Virus record (IMG/VR): IMGVR_UViG_3300044621_001014
Coordinates: 1 to 21,522 of that record
Length of the DNA: 21,522 bases
From: a virus
Direction: 5' to 3' (one strand)
Shown here: in pieces, positions 3 through 8,624 of the stretch
Layout: each line of letters starts with the position of its first letter
Numbering within the stretch: position 1 is the first letter of the stretch
Translations under genes and position numbers: made by a program
The notes under the pieces: model-generated
Seen by the model: only the letters and a program-made list of their open reading frames with translations
Told to the model about the DNA's origin: nothing
Database searches by the model: none

Positions 3-1970
3 ATGAAAATTCTCTGGATTGACTTCGAGACACGCAGCCGCTGCGACCTGTCCTCGCGTGGAGTCTATAACTATGCACAAGACGGCACCACGGATGTGCT
101 ATGCATGTCCTACGCGTTTGATGACGATCCCGTTGTCACCTGGACTCCCGACATGCCGTTTCCCAATGCGGTACGCCAGCACACCGGGCAAATCCGGGCG
201 CACAATGCTGCCTTCGAGCGGCTCATATTCTGGTACGTCCTACAGTGTGACTTTCAACTCGAGCAGTTCTACTGCACCGCTACTCAAGCGCGTGCTAACT
301 GCCTACCGGGCAGCCTTGAAGACGTCGGACGCGCCATCAGCAGCAACATGCGCAAAGACCACCGAGGTAGCCAACTTATCCGCGCGCTTTCCATTCCACG
401 TGCCGATGGTACTTTCAATGATTCGCCCGAATTAATGGCCGAGATGATTCGCTATTGCGAGCAGGATGTCCGCTCCATGCGCGAGATCAGCAAGGCCATG
501 CGCCAGCTCACCGATGAAGAGCTGCTCGACTACCACGTCAACGAGCGCATTAACGACCGCGGCGTCTTGCTCGACCTGCCGCTCGCCCAGGCTGCGATCA
601 AGTACGCCGCGACCGAGATGGAAGAGATCGAGAACCTGGTGCAAGATATAACTAAGGGTGATATCTCTTCAGTCCGTAGTCCGCGCATGAAGGCGTGGGT
701 GATGGAGCGCGTCGGCGAGCAGGCGTTAAAGCTGATGGAGGTCTACAAAGACGGCGAAAAGAAGTACAGTATTGATAAGACGGTACGCGCCAACTTGCTC
801 ATCTTAGCCAAGGAGAATGCTGATGAAATTCCGGCCCATGTTGCGGACGTCATTCAATGCGCGGATGACCTCTGGGCGTCGTCGGTTGCGAAGTTCAGCC
901 GCCTTGGCGAGCTGGCTGACGAAGTTGATCACCGAGTACGAGGTGCATTTGTCTTCGCCGGAGGATCTGCCACCGGGCGTGCGTCAAGCTATGGGGCGCA
1001 GGTTCACAACTTCACCCGAAAGTGCGCAGCAGAACCCGATGACGTTAGGCACGCTATGGTCCGTGGCCACAGCGTCGTCCCAAGATTTGGAATTCGCGTT
1101 ACGGATGTTCTCAAGGGAATGCTCCGGCCCGCACTGATTCCTGCGCCTGGTAAACAGTTCGTTGTCGCCGACTGGTCGGCGGTCGAGGCCCGTGTCACTG
1201 CGTGGGCGTCCGCCGATTCGCAGGCCGAAGAGGTGCTAGATACCTTCCGCGCAGGCAAAGATATTTACATCCGCGAGGCCGCCGGTATTTACCGGGTGCC
1301 GTACGAAGAGATCGCCGAAGAGTACGAGCAGACCGGCGAGTCCGATCGGCGCCAGATCGGCAAGGTCGCCATTCTTTCACTCGGTTTCGGCGGCTCGATC
1401 GGCGCCTTTTCTGCGATGGGGCGCGTCTACAAGGTCTATATGCCCGAGTCGGACGCGCGGCGGATTGTGGATGCGTGGCGCCGTGCGAACGCGTGGGCGG
1501 TGCGTTACTGGGCGAAGCTCGAAGACGCTTACACACGCGCGCTACGTAACCCAGGGCGCGAGTTCTCAGCCGGGCGTGTGACGTACCTCTACGACGGTCA
1601 GCATCTCTGGTACGCGCTGCCCTCGGGGCGAATCCTGTGTTACCCATTCGCTAAGTTCGAGGGCGACGAGATCACCTATATCAAGGCGGCATGGAAACCG
1701 GCGGCCGACGCCAAAGAATGGCCGAGAGCGCGCTTGTGGAAGGGGTTGGCCTGTGAGAATATTACTCAGGCAATCGCACACGACTTGCTACGGCATTCTT
1801 TACGCCAATTAGATGACGTCGTGCTGCATGTGCATGATGAGATCGTTCTGGAGACGGCAGACCCTGAAGCACCCAATACCCTAAAGCAAGTGATGTGTAC
1901 GCCGCCTGACTGGGCGGCAGGACTACCTTTAAACGCTGGTGTCAAAACAATGACCCGGTACGGCAAATAA
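3..1970 (+). CDS. Family A DNA polymerase with 3'-5' proofreading exonuclease
   Basis: Replicative phage DNA polymerase of the bacterial Pol I (family A) type, 655 residues. The N-terminal proofreading domain shows ExoI DFETRS (D7, E9), ExoII AHNAAFE (N68, with E72 where many relatives have Asp) and ExoIII YCEQD (Y151, D155). The polymerase domain shows motif A DWSAVEAR (D390, E395), motif B from R450 through K454 to GFGG (461-464), and motif C HVHDE (D612, E613). There is no 5'-3' exonuclease domain, as is usual in phage forms. Aligned to E. coli Pol I, the Phe762 position is Leu458 and Tyr766 is Phe462. The ATG is two bases from the window edge, so its ribosome binding site cannot be seen, but the exonuclease motif begins right after it, supporting this start. 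It is followed by the primase-helicase, the other half of the replication module. The family assignment is very secure. Confidence 0.96.
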   Translation: MKILWIDFETRSRCDLSSRGVYNYAQDGTTDVLCMSYAFDDDPVVTWTPDMPFPNAVRQHTGQIRAHNAAFERLIFWYVLQCDFQLEQFYCTATQARANCLPGSLEDVGRAISSNMRKDHRGSQLIRALSIPRADGTFNDSPELMAEMIRYCEQDVRSMREISKAMRQLTDEELLDYHVNERINDRGVLLDLPLAQAAIKYAATEMEEIENLVQDITKGDISSVRSPRMKAWVMERVGEQALKLMEVYKDGEKKYSIDKTVRANLLILAKENADEIPAHVADVIQCADDLWASSVAKFSRLGELADEVDHRVRGAFVFAGGSATGRASSYGAQVHNFTRKCAAEPDDVRHAMVRGHSVVPRFGIRVTDVLKGMLRPALIPAPGKQFVVADWSAVEARVTAWASADSQAEEVLDTFRAGKDIYIREAAGIYRVPYEEIAEEYEQTGESDRRQIGKVAILSLGFGGSIGAFSAMGRVYKVYMPESDARRIVDAWRRANAWAVRYWAKLEDAYTRALRNPGREFSAGRVTYLYDGQHLWYALPSGRILCYPFAKFEGDEITYIKAAWKPAADAKEWPRARLWKGLACENITQAIAHDLLRHSLRQLDDVVLHVHDEIVLETADPEAPNTLKQVMCTPPDWAAGLPLNAGVKTMTRYGK

Positions 1971-2016: not shown

Positions 2017-4320
2017 TTGGAGTTCTTAGAGTATCTCACAAAACTCGCGCCTGAAGGCGAAACCCTATTAATCGTTCGGCAAAAGCCGAAACTCAAAGAC
2101 GGACAGGTTGAACTGCACGCCGACGGGGCGGTTAAAGCCGTCTGGCCGGCGTTCTATCCTGATCACCGCCGCCGTGATGGCGAGGCGTGGTACGGCAACA
2201 CCGCGTCGTTTATCGTCGATCGGTTCACCGACGGCAAACCTAGCGCCAGCGCCGCGAATTGCGAGTACGTCTTGGTAATGGTGTTAGATGACGTCGGCGA
2301 CCCGGCCAAGGCACCTGAGACGCCGCCGTTAGCGCCCACCTGGATCATGGAGACGTCGCCGGGATCGTTTCAGTGGGGCTACGCGTTCTCGGAGCAGCCG
2401 ACCAAAGCCGACTATGCAGCGGCCATTAAAGCGATCGCAGCGGCTGGCTACAGCGACCCCGGCGCTTGCAACCCGGTGCGCAACTTTCGCCTGCCGGGCT
2501 CAGTTAACCTGAAACCCGGCCGCAATAGCTTTGCCGCGCAGTTGACCGAGTTTCACCCCGAGCGCGAATACACGTTAGACGAAATCTGCACGGCGTTGAA
2601 CGTCACGCCGGTGCCGGTCGAGTCGATCGGCGTTAATCCGATCAAACTGGCGGATGACGGTGGCGACGACGTCTTCGGGTGGCTGGGTGAGCATGGTCTG
2701 GTGCTCACCAAACCCAACCGCGAGGGATGGGCAGGCGTCGTCTGCCCGAATAAGGATCAGCACACGGACGGCAACCCGGAAGGGCGCTATAACCCGTCCT
2801 CGAGGGCGTATTGCTGCCTGCATTCGCACTGCATTGACTTGGGTTCTACGGACTTTTTGGCATGGGTGGCTGCCAATGGCGGCCCTGAACGCTCGCCTGG
2901 GCTACGCGAGGAACTGATCGTCGGCACAATGAACATGGCATTGGCCAAACTCGAACCGACGGACGAGTTCCCGGACGTGGCGGCCGAGGTGGTCGAGGCC
3001 GTCGAGCGCCGGCAATTGGCGCGTGTTGAGCGCGAGGGTTGGTATGAGCGCTTTGCGTACATTGTTGAGGATGAAGCGTACTTCGACCTGGTCGACCGCC
3101 GCGAGGTGACGCGCAGCGCCTTCAATGCCCTTTTCCGCCACATTAGCTGCCTGTCGATCCATAACGGCCGCCGAATCGAGGCGTCCGTCTGTTTCGACGA
3201 GAACCGGGACGCGAAAGGCGCGATGGCTTTGACCGGCATCACCTACGCGGCCGGCGATGGCGTGGTAGTGCGCCGTGATGGCGTCGAGTACGGCAACCGT
3301 TGGCGCGACGCGCGGCCGGTACCGGTGCCCGGCGACGCGTCCCCGTGGCTCGAGCATGTCGAGCGCATGGTGCCGAACTCGGACGAGCGCGAGCATTTGT
3401 TGAACGTCCTCGCTTACAAAACCCAAAACCCGAGCGTGAAAATCAATCACGCCGTCCTAGTCGGCGGTTTACCCGGAAGCGGCAAGGACACCATGATGGC
3501 GCCGTTTTTCTGGGCGATTGGCGGCGACACTAAACAAAACTGCAGCTTGGTGCGCAACGAGGAACTCACGTCGCAATGGGGCTATGCGCTCGAGTGCGAA
3601 GTGATGGAAATCGCCGAGCTGCGCCAGAGTGAAGCGCGTGACCGACGCGCGCTTGAGAATAGCCTGAAACCGATCATTGCAGCGCCGCCGGACTTTTTAC
3701 AGATCAACCGTAAGGGTTTGCACCCTTACATGGCGCCTAACCGCGTCCTAGTGGTGGCATTCTCAAACGAAAGGGCGGCGATTTCGATCCCAACTAACGA
3801 TCGGCGATGGTTCTGCCTATGGTCGGACGCCGGCCGGTTACCCGAAACTGACGCGCGGCGCTTGTGGACTTGGTATAAACACAAGGGTGGCTTTGCGGCC
3901 GTCGCGTCTTATTTACACAATCGCGACGTGTCAATGTTTAACCCAGGCGCCGCGCCGCCGATGACAGAAGCAAAAGCGATTATGATCGACCATGGTAGGT
4001 CGACGGCCGAATCGTACTTGGTCGAACTCATTACCGGCCGTGTGGGTGAATTCGCGGCCGGCGTTGTTGCGTCTCCGTTTTTCTCGCTTTGTGACCGCTT
4101 GGCCGGATCCGCACCGGCCGGTGTGAAAATCCCACCTATGGCGCTTTTGCACGCGTTAACTGAAGCGGGATGGGTGGACCTTGGCCGCGTACATTCGCGG
4201 GACTTCAATACGAAAAAACAACTATTCTGCGCGCCAGACATGGCCGACATGTCGCGTACTGAGCTCAGGCGCTTGGCCGAGCAACCGCCGACACCGGCGG
4301 CCGTGCGCTTGGTGAAATAA
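2017..4320 (+). CDS. Primase-helicase: AEP-like primase fused to SF3/DUF5906-like helicase
   Basis: 767-residue replication protein with two enzymatic halves. The N-terminal half looks like an archaeo-eukaryotic (RepB/phage type) primase: an acidic pair in VLDDVGD (D91, D92), a segment around W109-W120 (ETSPGSFQW), and NPVRNFRLPGSVN (152-164), all typical of phage primase-polymerases. A Cys/His cluster follows (C243, H249, C266/C267, H269, H271, C272), likely a zinc knuckle. The C-terminal half is a P-loop helicase: Walker A GLPGSGKD (K490), an acidic VMEIAEL segment (529-535) as likely Walker B, and NDRRWF (594-599), as in the DUF5906/superfamily 3 group. The start is TTG, chosen because GGGAG lies six bases upstream. 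It would prime and unwind DNA for the polymerase upstream. The helicase class is inferred from motifs only. Confidence 0.9.
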   Translation: MEFLEYLTKLAPEGETLLIVRQKPKLKDGQVELHADGAVKAVWPAFYPDHRRRDGEAWYGNTASFIVDRFTDGKPSASAANCEYVLVMVLDDVGDPAKAPETPPLAPTWIMETSPGSFQWGYAFSEQPTKADYAAAIKAIAAAGYSDPGACNPVRNFRLPGSVNLKPGRNSFAAQLTEFHPEREYTLDEICTALNVTPVPVESIGVNPIKLADDGGDDVFGWLGEHGLVLTKPNREGWAGVVCPNKDQHTDGNPEGRYNPSSRAYCCLHSHCIDLGSTDFLAWVAANGGPERSPGLREELIVGTMNMALAKLEPTDEFPDVAAEVVEAVERRQLARVEREGWYERFAYIVEDEAYFDLVDRREVTRSAFNALFRHISCLSIHNGRRIEASVCFDENRDAKGAMALTGITYAAGDGVVVRRDGVEYGNRWRDARPVPVPGDASPWLEHVERMVPNSDEREHLLNVLAYKTQNPSVKINHAVLVGGLPGSGKDTMMAPFFWAIGGDTKQNCSLVRNEELTSQWGYALECEVMEIAELRQSEARDRRALENSLKPIIAAPPDFLQINRKGLHPYMAPNRVLVVAFSNERAAISIPTNDRRWFCLWSDAGRLPETDARRLWTWYKHKGGFAAVASYLHNRDVSMFNPGAAPPMTEAKAIMIDHGRSTAESYLVELITGRVGEFAAGVVASPFFSLCDRLAGSAPAGVKIPPMALLHALTEAGWVDLGRVHSRDFNTKKQLFCAPDMADMSRTELRRLAEQPPTPAAVRLVK

Positions 4321-4440: not shown

Positions 4441-4722
4441 TTAATCAAAAGCATGGCGTCCGCCTCCCGATAGATAATCGGCCGCTTCCGTTTCTAGTCG
4501 GTTGACGGTTGATTCCTTCAAATAGCACGCGATATCGGCCGGACTGTCGCCTACGTGGGCGTGTACTAGCCATGCGGTAGCGTTGACGCCTACAGAGGCG
4601 TCCGCCGGTTCGTAATCAACCCATACGCGGAACATAACGTCATCTAGCAGTATCTCGACGCGCTCCAAATAATGCGGATAGGAGCGCCGAGCGCCTACTA
4701 CAGCGGCGGTATCAGTCATCAT
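4441..4722 (-). CDS. Hypothetical small phage protein (last gene of leftward operon)
   Basis: 93-residue acidic protein beginning MMTDTAAVV; I do not recognise a family. An ATG fifteen bases further upstream is open, but the internal ATG is preferred. GAGG sits seven bases before it, and its A is shared with the TAA stop of the upstream gene (TAATG), a standard translational coupling arrangement. The middle (ERVEILLDDVMFRVWVDY) predicts alternating beta strands and the C-terminal half looks helical (TVNRLETEAADYL). There are no cysteines in a metal pattern, no signal peptide and no membrane segment apart from a short alanine-rich stretch. It is the last gene before the terminator at 4325-4356. 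Function unknown; its place among small early-type phage genes suggests a non-structural role. Confidence 0.75.
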   Translation of the reverse strand: MMTDTAAVVGARRSYPHYLERVEILLDDVMFRVWVDYEPADASVGVNATAWLVHAHVGDSPADIACYLKESTVNRLETEAADYLSGGGRHAFD

Positions 4723-4988
4723 TAAAAAACCTCGCATAGTGGGATTGTCGAATCGTACTGAGCGGTATTGCCGAAATTGAGGTTGTCATACTTGACGCGC
4801 GTCAAATTGTTCAATTCGTCGAATTGCCGGACATATTCGGCCGTGGTGAGGTCTGCGCGGTGCGGAAACTTGCGGATGTCCTTCGGTTTCTTTGGCTTGT
4901 ACGGTTTGCGCGCAAGCTTGGCTAATTCGATCGGATCCCGATCAAATTTCACTTTGTAGGTAGTGCCATCAATGTTTATCGTTTGCAT
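4722..4988 (-). CDS. Hypothetical basic small phage protein
   Basis: 88-residue protein starting MQTINIDGTTYKVKF. The reading frame is open further upstream, to 5147, but this ATG has GGAGG seven bases before it and gives a plausible N-terminal beta hairpin, so the longer version is rejected. Residues 28-41 are strongly basic (RKPYKPKKPKDIRK), followed by a helical stretch with polar residues (TTAEYVRQFDELNNL). A basic surface of this kind could contact nucleic acid, but that is only a guess. Its stop codon overlaps the next start by one base. Family unknown. Confidence 0.75.
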   Translation of the reverse strand: MQTINIDGTTYKVKFDRDPIELAKLARKPYKPKKPKDIRKFPHRADLTTAEYVRQFDELNNLTRVKYDNLNFGNTAQYDSTIPLCEVF

Positions 4989-5002
4989 AATTAAGCCTCC
5001 GT

Positions 5003-5467
5003 TTAGTAATCTTGCAACAGTTCGCGTATCTGGCGGACTGTTTCCGGTGAAAAATGCTTGCGCAGCGCAACGCCTATTTCTAAACAAGCTTTGTAGGTGT
5101 TTAGCGCCTTGATCGAATCGTCCGAGTAGCCAAAGGTTGCGCACCAATCATGAAAATTTTCATCTGCTGCGCTTGCGTCCATGGTTAGCGAGTGCAACAC
5201 GTCCGCAATTTTGGGTTTTCTAGCTATATCAGAGCCAAATTTCACCTTTTTGCGGTGACCTAAGCCGGTGAAATAGTCTGTAGACCAATAACCGGCTTTG
5301 CTAGAGATAGATACGCGCCACTGATCGCACGGCCAATCGTCGCGCCTAGTCTCGCAGACATAATCAATTTGTATAGGTAAAGTTTCCAGCGATTCAATAG
5401 TGTCAAAAGTAGTGTTAAGCATGGTCGGATCACTTTCAAGAAAAGGATTAAGCAACGCGCAGGACAT
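5003..5467 (-). CDS. Conserved-type phage hypothetical protein
   Basis: 154 residues. The C-terminal part (DENFHDWCATFGYSDDS, then KALNTYKACLEIGVALRKHF) follows a pattern I recognise from small proteins in many phage early regions (aromatic, acidic 'W-C-x-E/T-F-G-Y-D' then a helix with lysines), for which no function is established to my knowledge. A run LPIQIDYVCETRRDDW with later SSKAGYWSTDYFTGLG suggests a beta-sheet N-terminal half. The start is uncertain. ATG 5467 overlaps the upstream gene by 20 bases with a weak AGG six bases before it. ATG 5422 (MLNTTFDT) would leave a 25-base gap but has no clear Shine-Dalgarno. Non-structural role inferred from operon position. Confidence 0.8.
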   Translation of the reverse strand: MSCALLNPFLESDPTMLNTTFDTIESLETLPIQIDYVCETRRDDWPCDQWRVSISSKAGYWSTDYFTGLGHRKKVKFGSDIARKPKIADVLHSLTMDASAADENFHDWCATFGYSDDSIKALNTYKACLEIGVALRKHFSPETVRQIRELLQDY

Positions 5468-5663
5468 AGTGCGCCTGCGTAGGACCTGATATGTCGGTAG
5501 ATTCGCCGATCAACAGATCGGTGACATAGGCTATGTCGTCGGCCGAGTAGCCATTGTCGCTATTGAAAAAGTCCACGCCGTGGATTTCCGTGACGAATTC
5601 ATCGGTGGACACGTTCCACACGCAAACAAATTGTTCGTGGCCATACATTTGATTTTTTTCCAT
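5448..5663 (-). CDS. Hypothetical small phage protein
   Basis: 71-residue acidic protein starting MEKNQMYG. AAGGGG lies six bases before the ATG, a strong ribosome binding site shared in form with the other genes of this operon. The sequence alternates beta-like (EQFVCVWNVST, FVTEIHGVDFF) and helix-like (SADDIAYVTDLLIGE) segments and ends in a predicted strand (AHYVLRVA). The 'GYSADDIAYV..L..GE' pattern resembles small uncharacterised proteins of other phages, but I cannot name a family. The 3' end overlaps the preferred start of the next gene by 20 bases. Confidence 0.75.
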   Translation of the reverse strand: MEKNQMYGHEQFVCVWNVSTDEFVTEIHGVDFFNSDNGYSADDIAYVTDLLIGESTDISGPTQAHYVLRVA

Positions 5664-5675
5664 AATGTTCCCCTT

Positions 5676-5954
5676 TTAGAATGTTTCAACAAAGTCGACG
5701 ATATCTTGCCAATTGTCGGACGTTACATATGCCACTTGGTCACCGTCCTTGACGCGCTCGGCCGTAAATCGTGCGTGTCCGGAATACTCACGTTCGCTCG
5801 GATTCGCGAAATCTACCCATAGGCAAAGAAAATCACTCGCGCCGATGTCCTTGGTGAAATGCGGACATACGTCATTGTGATAAGAATTGCCTTCAAAGCC
5901 AGCCGGAATAGTCACGTCAAGAACAAAGTCGGGAAATTCAGTTTTGTAGGTCAT
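5676..5954 (-). CDS. Hypothetical small phage protein
   Basis: 92 residues starting MTYKTEFPDF. A longer frame is open to 6107, but the internal ATG at 5954 has AAAGGG six bases upstream, and the longer version would run through the separate 30-residue gene in another frame. Sequence features are a beta-rich N-terminus, a CPHF motif, then LWVDFANPSEREYSGHARFTAE. The pairing of an 'LWVDY/F' strand with an 'RE..G..RF' strand is seen in small phage early proteins of unknown function. It ends in a helix rich in acidic and aromatic residues (DNWQDIVDFVETF). No enzyme motif is visible. Confidence 0.8.
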   Translation of the reverse strand: MTYKTEFPDFVLDVTIPAGFEGNSYHNDVCPHFTKDIGASDFLCLWVDFANPSEREYSGHARFTAERVKDGDQVAYVTSDNWQDIVDFVETF

Positions 5955-5965
5955 GACTAACCCTT

Positions 5966-6058
5966 TCAGAATGACAGCAAAAAGTAAAAGAATGCCCACA
6001 TAATCAGCGCGCCGAGAGCGCCGCCGATCATCTCTAAGAGTGTTGGTTTCGTGTTCAT
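5966..6058 (-). CDS. 30-residue single-span membrane peptide (first gene of leftward operon)
   Basis: Short gene reading MNTKPTLLEMIGG and then a hydrophobic helix (about residues 11-30, ALGALIMWAFFYFLLSF) to the stop. AAGGGG lies seven bases before the ATG, matching the sites of its operon neighbours, which is the main reason to believe it is translated. It ends eleven bases before the next start. The peptide has a short charged/polar N-terminus and a membrane segment running to the last residue, which suggests insertion in the inner membrane. The role is unknown; small early phage membrane peptides can alter host membrane functions, but nothing here proves that. Confidence 0.65.
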   Translation of the reverse strand: MNTKPTLLEMIGGALGALIMWAFFYFLLSF

Positions 6059-6105
6059 TTGATAACCCCTTCGTTTTGTTTTGTAAAAGATTGTGCTGCA
6101 GAAGC

Positions 6106-6133
6106 AAAATAGCACACTTTTAGAGAATGTAAA
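6106..6133 (-). promoter_or_regulatory. Likely promoter of the leftward small-gene operon
   Basis: On the - strand TTTACA (6128-6133) and TATTTT (6106-6111) are separated by 16 bases, a reasonable sigma-70-like pair, 48 bases upstream of the first ATG of the operon. A 7-bp inverted repeat (TGTAAAA with TTTTACA, 5-base spacer, 6128-6146) covers the -35 element and could be an operator. The -10 is a moderate match. Confidence 0.45.
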
Positions 6134-6486: not shown

Positions 6487-6696
6487 ATGCCAAAACCACC
6501 CACATTGACGCCCAAAAGATTCGACAGAAGATTGACGTTAGAGCAACTAAATATTTTAGCGGCCGCCGGATCCGGAAACATCACAAAAGGTCTTGATGTC
6601 GTTTTGAGCTGCTACCAAGTACTGTATAACGCCGGCGTCAAAAGTGATGACAAGTTATTAATATTACTTTCAGATATACGGAAATCCGATAAGTGA
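6487..6696 (+). CDS. Small protein, possible ribbon-helix-helix DNA-binding regulator
   Basis: 69 residues starting MPKPPTLTPKRF. The stretch RFDRRLTLEQLNILAAAGSG then NITKGLDVVLSCYQVLYNAG has the layout of a ribbon-helix-helix protein: a short basic strand, a helix, a 'G-N-I-x-x-G' turn and a second helix. This is a pattern-level guess, not a firm match. It is the first rightward gene after the repeat-rich control region, and the gene's own first codons overlap an ACCCACA motif, which would suit an autoregulator. No Shine-Dalgarno is visible before the ATG, and the frame is closed by a stop at 6463-6465, so only this ATG or TTG 6505 can be the start. The gene could be weakly translated or not real. 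Confidence 0.5.
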   Translation: MPKPPTLTPKRFDRRLTLEQLNILAAAGSGNITKGLDVVLSCYQVLYNAGVKSDDKLLILLSDIRKSDK

Positions 6697-7039
6697 GGGT
6701 TTTTTATATATAGGCGCTTGACCGTACAGGTACCTGCGAAATGGTGCCCCACGCTTTCACCTATCACTAAAAACTATCAACCCTGGCCAGGTGATAGCCA
6801 GGTTCTATCCCCAATAGTCTGCGTCAATGGCCTGCGCATCATGTCCGCATAACGAGCATTATGTAAAACGCGCTCGGCTGTCGGCCGGTAGGCATTGGCT
6901 ATCGACCGCTTGCTTTTGTGACAACTTTGATGGGGGGGGAGGGGTCGGTCTGTCAGATTAAAATTTGCGGGTACCTCCAACCCACAAAAAAAAGCAAACC
7001 GGCTACAATGCTCGAAGCTTTCCAACTGGAGAAAAAGCG
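6697..7039. other. Noncoding stretch between control region and terminase genes
   Basis: 343 bases with no supportable gene on either strand. It holds a 7-bp inverted repeat CTATCAC/GTGATAG around a CCTGGCCAGG palindrome (about 6760-6797), a dif-like sequence (6842-6869), a purine tract of eight G, one A and four G (6932-6944), one more ACCCACA (6980-6986) running into an A8 tract, and a -10-like TACAAT (7004-7009) without a good -35. Lying just upstream of the terminase genes it may also include the packaging site and the late promoter; neither is proven. No tRNA fold was found. Confidence 0.55.
6842..6869 (+). other. dif-like XerC/XerD recombination site (candidate attP or resolution site)
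   Basis: The left arm TGTCCGCATAA matches the XerC half of E. coli dif (GGTGCGCATAA) at 9 of 11 positions. A 6-base centre CGAGCA follows. The right arm TTATGTAAAAC matches the XerD half (TTATGTTAAAT) at 9 of 11. The spacing is exactly that of dif, and the inner dyad GCATAA-N6-TTATG is intact. The centre differs from the chromosomal TGTATA. It lies in a noncoding gap, where an attachment or dimer-resolution site would be expected. The comparison was made by eye from the known dif sequence; binding and function are inference. Confidence 0.5.
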
Positions 7040-7372
7040 ATGGCAACGGAATACAAAGCACCGCGCAAACTGCCGATGACTGAGAGTCAGAAGATCAAGG
7101 AGTTGCGCCGGATGATGATCGAGGGGCGCGGCAAGGCGGTCGTGCAAAAGATCATCGACATTGCGTTAGAGGACGGCCACCCAGGCCAGATGGCGGCGCT
7201 AAAGATGTGCGTCGACCGCACGCTCCCGGTCAGTATGTTTGAGAAGACCAACGGCCAGCGCAGCGCAGTCACCATCAACATCACAGGCATGGACGGCACG
7301 CCACTTCAGATCGGCGCATCCAGCACCCCCGAACCGCTGACGCTGGAGATGGAGACACCGAACAATGGCTGA
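7040..7372 (+). CDS. Putative small terminase subunit
   Basis: 110-residue protein starting MATEYKAPRKLP. The frame is open upstream, but this ATG has GGAG eight bases before it. The gene directly precedes the large terminase and overlaps it by eight bases, the usual place of the DNA-recognition subunit. The sequence has a basic helical N-terminus (SQKIKELRRMMIEGRGKAVVQKIIDIALEDG), a stretch AALKMCVDRTLPVSMFEK, and a beta strand SAVTINITGM. This order is characteristic of short proteins found before podovirus terminases. It would bind the packaging site on concatemeric DNA and recruit the large subunit. No classical helix-turn-helix is obvious, so the role rests on position and general likeness. 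Confidence 0.7.
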   Translation: MATEYKAPRKLPMTESQKIKELRRMMIEGRGKAVVQKIIDIALEDGHPGQMAALKMCVDRTLPVSMFEKTNGQRSAVTINITGMDGTPLQIGASSTPEPLTLEMETPNNG

Positions 7373-8624
7373 CTTGAACTTTCAACTGCTGCCGTGGCAG
7401 CAGACGGTTTTCTCCGATCCGACGCGCTTCAAAGTCGTCGCGGCCGGACGCCGGTGCGGTAAATCGAGACTGGCGGCGACCACCTTGCTAATCGAGGGAC
7501 TGCGCTGCCCGCCCGGCTCTGCCGTGCTGTATGTCGCGCCCACCCAGGGCCAAGCGCGGCAGATTATCTGGAACGTGTTGCTCGATCTAGGGCGCGACGT
7601 GATCGCCAACAGTCACATCAACAACCAGGACATCACGCTGATCAACGGGGCGACGATCTATGTCAGAGGCGCCGACCGGCCCGACACCCTGCGCGGGGTG
7701 AGCTTGACCTACGCCGTGCTGGATGAAGTGGCCGACATTAAGCCCGAGGCGTGGGAGCAGGTCATTCGAGCGTCGTTGTCGGACAAGAAGGGGCGTGGGT
7801 TGTTCATCGGCACGCCCAAGGGCAGGAACTGGTTCCACGACTTGTACAAGTTGGGGCAGACGCAAGACGATGACGACTGGAAGAGCTGGCACTTCACCAC
7901 CAAGGACAACCCGCTAATCGACCCGACTGAGATCGAGTCGGCGAAGAAGACGCTGTCGACGTTTGCATTTAAGCAAGAATACATGGCGAGCTTCGACAAC
8001 GCCGGGGCGGACGTGTTCAAGGAAGACTGGATCAAGTACAGCGACGAGCCGCAGTACGGCAGTTACTACGTGGCGGTCGATCTGGCGGGGTTTGAAGAGG
8101 TGGCCAAGCAGGCGGCGAACTCCAAGAAGCGCTTAGACGAGTCGGCGATTGCGATTGTAAAGGTGACCGAGGACGGCACGTGGTGGGTGAAGGACATCTG
8201 GCACGGGCGGTGGGACATCCGGGAGACGGCGGCGAAGATCCTGATGGCCATGCGCGATTACCGGCCGATGTCGGTGGGGATCGAGCGGGGGGCACTAAAG
8301 AACGCGGTTTTGCCGTATTTGAGTGACTTAATGCGTAAGAATAATGTATATTCGCACATAGTTGACCTGACGCACGGCAACCGAAAAAAGGCCGACCGGA
8401 TAATCTGGGGACTCCAAGGTCGTTTCGAGCATGGACGCATCGTGCTAAACGAAGACGGCGATTGGGAAACATTCCTCGACCAACTGCTGTTGTTTCCTGC
8501 GCAGGGCGTGCATGATGACCTGCCCGATGCATTGTCCTACATAGACCAGTTGGCCGTAACCTCTTACTTTGCGGACGACGCGGATGATGATTGGGAACCA
8601 ATCGACGTGATCGCTGGAGTGTGA
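7365..8624 (+). CDS. terL: Terminase large subunit (packaging ATPase and nuclease)
   Basis: 419-residue motor that pumps DNA into the prohead and cuts the concatemer. The ATPase half shows Walker A GRRCGKS (28-34), Walker B AVLDE (D120, E121) and the coupling motif IGTPKG (148-153). The nuclease half has an RNase H-like set of acidic residues: D239 in YVAVDLAG, E307 in VGIERGA, and D384/D385/D388 in HDDLPDAL. The length is typical of compact podovirus large terminases. The start overlaps the small terminase stop, with GGAG ten bases upstream. One base separates its stop from the portal start, so packaging genes form one coupled unit. All catalytic residues look intact. Confidence 0.96.
   Translation: MADLNFQLLPWQQTVFSDPTRFKVVAAGRRCGKSRLAATTLLIEGLRCPPGSAVLYVAPTQGQARQIIWNVLLDLGRDVIANSHINNQDITLINGATIYVRGADRPDTLRGVSLTYAVLDEVADIKPEAWEQVIRASLSDKKGRGLFIGTPKGRNWFHDLYKLGQTQDDDDWKSWHFTTKDNPLIDPTEIESAKKTLSTFAFKQEYMASFDNAGADVFKEDWIKYSDEPQYGSYYVAVDLAGFEEVAKQAANSKKRLDESAIAIVKVTEDGTWWVKDIWHGRWDIRETAAKILMAMRDYRPMSVGIERGALKNAVLPYLSDLMRKNNVYSHIVDLTHGNRKKADRIIWGLQGRFEHGRIVLNEDGDWETFLDQLLLFPAQGVHDDLPDALSYIDQLAVTSYFADDADDDWEPIDVIAGV

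Follow-up and report, generated by a model that had tools for sequence, protein, structure and literature searches.

The dif-like site and its gene setting

The window analyzed here is a linear virus contig from IMG/VR with a length of 21,522 bases, whereas near-complete relatives of this phage measure 34-38 kb. Its genes and the elements of a dif-like site located in the noncoding gap before the terminase genes are listed in Table 1. The large terminase gene is followed by genes for an SU10/P22-type portal, a capsid protein and an SU10-type adaptor. Among relatives, the large terminase gene lies at scattered distances from the contig ends, so the ends of contigs are uninformative on the termini of the virion genome. 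A search for plasmid relatives by large terminase returned only SSU5-type phage-plasmids, at approximately 46% over half of the protein.

Table 1. Features of the window, and dif-like sites in annotated records of virulent phages
Feature	Positions	Strand	Remarks
Family A DNA polymerase	3-1970		
Primase/helicase-like protein with DUF5906	2017-4320		
Small ORFs	4441-6107	-	
69-aa ORF	6487-6696		
Noncoding gap	6697-7039		holds the dif-like site; 69-aa ORF on one side, small terminase on the other
XerC-side arm, TGTCCGCATAA	6842-6852	+	9/11 to E. coli dif; family keeps only ATAA
Center CGAGCA, 6 bp	6853-6858	+	family consensus C-N-N-G-C-[A/G]; host centers TGTATA/TTTATA differ
XerD-side arm, TTATGTAAAAC	6859-6869	+	9/11 to E. 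coli dif
GC immediately 3' of XerD-side arm	6870-6871	+	family-conserved, 1.65 and 1.43 bits vs 0.4 in flanks
G-tract, GGGGGGGGAGGGG	6932-6944	+	3' of the dif-like site; recurs across relatives
Probable small terminase	7040-7372	+	assigned from its position; matches neither Pfam nor PHROG
Large terminase	7365-8624	+	PF03237; phrog_2
Fiber-like ORF of 937 aa	10664-13477		collagen-like Gly-X-Y stretch close to N-terminus
FV3 site (L448)	1497		
Hena1 site (L449/L466)	289 and 2113		
Gotham site (L455/L465)			
SYP site (L456/L464)			

The site reads TGTCCGCATAA-CGAGCA-TTATGTAAAAC and has the 11-6-11 arrangement of Xer sites, with an intact inner dyad (ATAA-N6-TTAT) and a spacing of six bases. The XerC-side arm matches NNTNCGCATAA in 9 of 11 positions, and the XerD-side arm follows the pattern TTATGTNAANT except for a different final base. 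A sequence-only reading of this DNA had reported the site with the same coordinates, nine matches in each arm, exact spacing and noncoding location, all of which proved correct, and its rough estimate that far less than one such site is expected by chance agrees with our calculation: at the base composition of the window, 0.0011 sites are expected to share 18 or more of the 22 arm positions with E. coli dif, as this site does, and the runner-up place shares 15. With up to three mismatches allowed to the searched arm pattern, the positions 6842-6869 are the sole match in the window, and no match occurred in 100 shuffles. We also derived a matrix from E. coli dif together with 27 dif sites of Burkholderiales chromosomes; it assigns 24.6 bits to the site and 2.0 bits to the next place in the window, while the scores in 300 shuffled windows did not exceed 21.4 bits.

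Based on the large terminase alone, we collected relatives comprising 797 kb of family DNA, which were thus not chosen by the presence of a dif-like site. Using a threshold of at least 15 bits on the dif matrix for a strong site, 28 of 31 strong sites were located within 1.3 kb upstream of the large terminase gene. The density of strong sites was 0.33 per kb in this zone compared to 0.0042 per kb elsewhere, a 79-fold enrichment, and at least one of the three sites outside the zone (in L007, at -1764) also lies upstream of the small terminase gene. Loss of the site from close relatives had been named beforehand as an observation that would speak against it; its position upstream of the large terminase gene is conserved. 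The arm statistics, matrix score, conservation and positional enrichment together lead us to reject a chance match, and we consider it very probable from the sequence that this is a genuine Xer-type site to which host XerC/XerD would bind. Strong sites are present in 25 and absent in 28 of the 53 relatives with enough upstream sequence, including three near-complete genomes without one (G014, G020, G023), hence the site must be dispensable or replaceable.

The conserved parts of the family site are ATAA, the center CNNGC[A/G] and the XerD arm. In 15 dereplicated relatives, information content was calculated at positions that had not been used to find the motif, and ATAA, center positions 4-6, XerD-arm positions 7 and 10-11 and the trailing GC average 1.3-1.8 bits compared to 0.4 bits in the flanks. 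Conservation does not extend to the outer seven bases of the XerC arm (0.44 bits vs 0.40 in the flanks). In one subclade (L057, L071, L040), the site runs in the opposite orientation and both of its arms are dif-like, as in ACTTCGCACAA-CGTCCA-TTATGTAAAGT of L057. In L142, L152, L168 and L189, there is an additional site in inverted orientation, CACGAAAATAA-AATGCG-TTATGTAAAAT, located approximately 115 bases upstream of the main site. The interval between the site and the small terminase gene contains lac-operator-like palindromes GTGAGCGCTCAC and AAGTAAGTACTCACTAAC repeats in many relatives (L016, L029, L035, L044, L006, L008) and neither of them in the window; the recurrent G-tract is a possible packaging or structure signal. 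Shuffling of modules at the site, as known for Acinetobacter pdif modules, was considered and rejected as too weak, with one similar and one different flank in 5 of 136 close pairs.

Comparison with chromosomal dif sites

Scanning 84,980 species genomes, we recovered one close relative, a phage contig of 4.7 kb belonging to a metagenome-assembled genome (MAG), and two more distant relatives. From a candidate-host MAG with a phage contig, we infer that the family infects Burkholderiales. The dif site of this MAG is TAACCGCATAA-TGTATA-TTATGTAAAGT, whereas its phage contig (L082) carries AATGCAGATAA-CCAGCA-TTATGTAAAAT, so the comparison with the dif of a candidate host, which had been proposed as a check, revealed two different centers.

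We surveyed 300 genomes from the order of this single candidate host, 195 of which match ATAA-N6-TTATGTNAANT. Among 150 matches listed, the center has the form T....A in 131 (TGTATA in 62) and starts with C in only five, one of which is the phage contig itself; the phage-type center is absent from chromosomal dif sites among these matches. The commonest XerD arms among the matches listed are TTATGTTAAAT (44), TTATGTAAAAT (26), TTATGTCAAAT (26) and TTATGTAAAGT (20), and the last three are identical to variants of the XerD arm found in the phage family. Thus the arms of the phage sites are variants of those of the host, and the center is unlike that of the host. Other dif-like hits in Burkholderiales genomes (CGAACA in G222, CGGGCG in G056, CGAGCC in G104) were dismissed, as their number is about the chance yield of the pattern.

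Other viruses with dif-like sites

A scan of IMG/VR with the pattern ATAACNNGCRTTATGTNAAAY returned 72 stretches, of which about two thirds belong to the family of the window and the rest to unrelated viruses; many of the latter have textbook XerC arms, although the pattern did not demand them. The pattern CGYATAAN6TTATGTNAAAY was found in at least 120 stretches, the reversed pattern in 42, and a version with a seven-base center in 82, mostly on short contigs. The host center TGTATA is present in one of 21 stretches listed from contigs of at least 20 kb. Among larger contigs with a dif-like site, a tyrosine integrase was detected in only two of 34, and ParA scored above the cut-off in three. 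These three unrelated 39 kb virus contigs (G334, G341 and G353, with loci L145, L199 and L242, respectively) combine a parA gene with a textbook dif-like site, have no integrase, and are likely phage-plasmids. On a 36.9 kb contig (G352; L453, positions 1-120), the site AGTTCGTATAA-TACCCA-TTATGTTAAAT is followed at once by a DnaA-box-like GTGGATAACCTGTGGATAACA, and this region is a possible phage origin. The sites with a seven-base center (L368-L444) occur mostly on contigs of 4-12 kb, some of which have copies at the two ends, a pattern expected for circular filamentous-type phages.

A blastn comparison of one dif-like site with annotated phage records identified noncoding gaps of Vequintavirinae. 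The sites of FV3 and Gotham (GGTGCGCATAA-TGGGTA-TTATGTTAAAT) and of Hena1 (GGTGCGCATAA-GGTGTA-TTATGTTAAAT) match E. coli dif in all 22 arm positions and have non-host centers. Close variants are present in 4MG, PVP-SE1, CR3 and phiTE, with CR3 sharing the center GGTGTA with Hena1. HeinrichReichert, a Vequintavirus from the BASEL collection, has the site at 93444. In Gotham and Hena1, the annotated direct terminal repeats, which we verified to be 459 and 519 bp long, respectively, contain the site, and in Pseudomonas phage SYP it falls within a direct terminal repeat of 351 bases, likewise verified; each genome end therefore carries one copy, a P1-lox-like arrangement, in these cases, which were noticed partly through the two copies listed in some records and are not an unbiased census. 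Records of about 60-145 kb labelled as Campylobacter phages (H101-H115, H123-H127) also match the Vequintavirus-type site, and are possibly mislabelled or mixed assemblies.

The near-identical sites at the genome ends of virulent phages suggest that host enzymes are borrowed to close or separate genomes, not to insert them. More tentatively, and at somewhat less than even odds, Xer sites with host arms and non-host centers may exist in several lineages of tailed phages that are unrelated to each other, some of them strictly virulent. Such sites would lie at the terminal redundancy or packaging genes, and through them host XerC/XerD would circularize the injected genome or trim multimers without RecA and without the risk of integration at dif. 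Our search of the openly accessible journal literature returned descriptions of the use of Xer by filamentous and non-tailed phages (PMC5357621, PMC9966536) and of Xer-like recombinases encoded by plasmid prophages (PMC8026635), but none of a host-Xer site in a virulent tailed phage or in the terminal repeats of such a phage.

Proposed role of the site and relation to known systems

We propose that host XerCD recombines copies of the phage genome with each other, resulting in monomerization or circularization, and assign a probability of about 0.5 to this reading, in which binding, strand exchange, timing and benefit are all predicted. The Xer sites of Acinetobacter plasmids provide a precedent: XerCD uses ATAA-N6-TTAT sites whose XerD arm is good and whose XerC arm is poor, some of these sites work without FtsK, the center GGTGTA is functional, and intramolecular recombination calls for identical centers (PMC11705084). 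From these properties, we expect the phage sites to pair with each other. The substrates would be two copies with the same center, located on a replicative form that is multimeric or circular, or else one at each end of a genome with terminal redundancy, and the action of host XerCD on them would produce monomer circles, much as Cre does at lox in P1. For sites placed in terminal repeats, this would circularize the injected genome, while in the family of the window it would circularize or monomerize. A phage-type center would leave the arms usable by host XerCD and yet pair poorly with chromosomal dif, which would keep the phage from being trapped in the chromosome.

In favor of recombination between phage copies, we count the arm statistics, the positional conservation, the host-like XerD arms, the inverted sites with two dif-like arms in one subclade, the negative searches for an integrase or resolvase, the like design of the sites in virulent phages, and the placement in terminal repeats of three other phages. 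Against it stand the poorly conserved XerC arm in the family and the relatives without a strong site. In addition, the FtsK-dependent activity of XerCD is tied to septation, a step that may be absent during lysis, and a phage that packages from concatemers should not profit from late resolution. No accessory sequences of the cer/psi type were identified for the phage site.

A search for an integrase, suggested earlier as a check, found no tyrosine integrase (PF00589) in 30 family contigs and no serine resolvase (PF00239) in 18, many of these contigs being fragments, while both domains were detected in most or all control genomes; this is consistent with an Xer-type site in a phage without its own integrase. 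Such a site could also resolve multimers of an extrachromosomal prophage, or phage-plasmid, in an FtsK-linked reaction at cell division, like plasmid Xer sites. Plasmid Xer sites typically have a variable center, ParA is encoded on the three unrelated contigs described above, and a relative (G003) has a weak Cro/CI-like HTH gene. However, no ParA (PF13614) was detected in the near-complete genomes G003, G008 and G010, in a search that covered neither ParM nor TubZ, the window has no clear repressor, and the phage's own DNA polymerase, primase, exonuclease and helicase dominate the gene set. We thus consider a phage-plasmid improbable, though the best of the alternatives; of the earlier suggestion of dimer resolution as a phage-plasmid, resolution among phage copies is compatible with the data, and the plasmid state is disfavored by the missing ParA.

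Less probable still is a regulatory role without recombination, as an operator or promoter in the terminase region, with an accidental likeness to dif. The gap is a control region with other dyads, the recurrent G-tract and further repeats close by. However, the site conforms to dif in both arms and in its 6-bp spacing, its variants track those of host dif, the orientation is inverted in one subclade, and textbook dif arms also occur in unrelated phages. A single promoter-like match coincides with the site; it is found on the opposite strand and does not surpass those in shuffled sequences.

The original proposal that the phage integrates at host dif is not borne out. As the attP of an IMEX-like tailed phage, the site would be used by host XerCD for integration into the chromosome, as for CTXphi, VGJphi and TLCphi. 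Its arms resemble host dif, no integrase was found, and filamentous and non-tailed phages do integrate in this way (PMC5357621, PMC9966536). The known types of Xer integration need homology of the center on at least one side (PMC5357621), whereas CGA/GCA shares one base of three with TGT/ATA on each side, in line with the earlier remark that the center departs from chromosomal TGTATA, and no Burkholderiales dif center among the matches listed fits. Prophages of this family flanked by dif, which were to be expected under integration, were absent from the 84,980 genomes, a weak test as the host is uncertain, and the one close relative recovered was the short phage contig. Integration at dif is therefore unlikely given the center mismatch and the lack of such prophages, and recombination between phage copies fits better because it requires only a center common to two phage copies. 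A single-strand hairpin resembling that of CTXphi attP was rejected, as the region folds no better than shuffled sequences (z 0.02).

Finally, a decoy or relic, i.e. XerCD-binding DNA kept to occupy or redirect XerCD/FtsK without recombination, would agree with an XerD arm that is strongly conserved and an XerC arm that is not, but is highly improbable, since a conserved center or exact spacing would be superfluous in a decoy and a relic would not persist at one place in a variable gap.

Altogether, a lake-type family of tailed phages with no detected DNA-integrating enzyme appears, from its sequences, to keep, just before its packaging genes, a copy of the 28-letter Xer site with which bacteria untangle their chromosomes. 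Circularization and processing of genomes in large virulent phages with terminal repeats are usually ascribed to general recombination. If recombination between phage copies by host Xer is confirmed, it would make virulent phages dependent in a new way on the machinery of chromosome segregation and would explain conserved noncoding gaps of well-known coliphages, and the Xer-exploiting elements would gain a class of phages that appears to avoid dif and not to target it.

Among known systems, chromosomal dif of Burkholderiales and E. coli has the same 11-6-11 layout, ATAA-N6-TTAT and the XerD arm TTATGTNAA, whereas the phage site has a CNNGC[A/G] center in place of T....A, a weak XerC arm and a location in a phage control region. 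The plasmid Xer sites (cer, psi and Acinetobacter pdif/xrs) share with it a variable center, a degenerate XerC arm, a conserved XerD arm and, presumably, the use of host XerCD; here, in contrast, the carrier is a tailed phage in which we detected no plasmid partition or replication module and identified no accessory sequences. The attP sites of CTXphi, VGJphi, TLCphi and the non-tailed vibriophage NO16 are likewise dif-like sites on phages without their own integrase, but the center in the window is homologous to host dif on neither side and no prophage at dif was found. In P1, loxP and Cre tie a recombination site to packaging and terminal redundancy, and injected DNA circularizes without RecA; P1 supplies its own recombinase, whereas the phage site described here would use that of the host.
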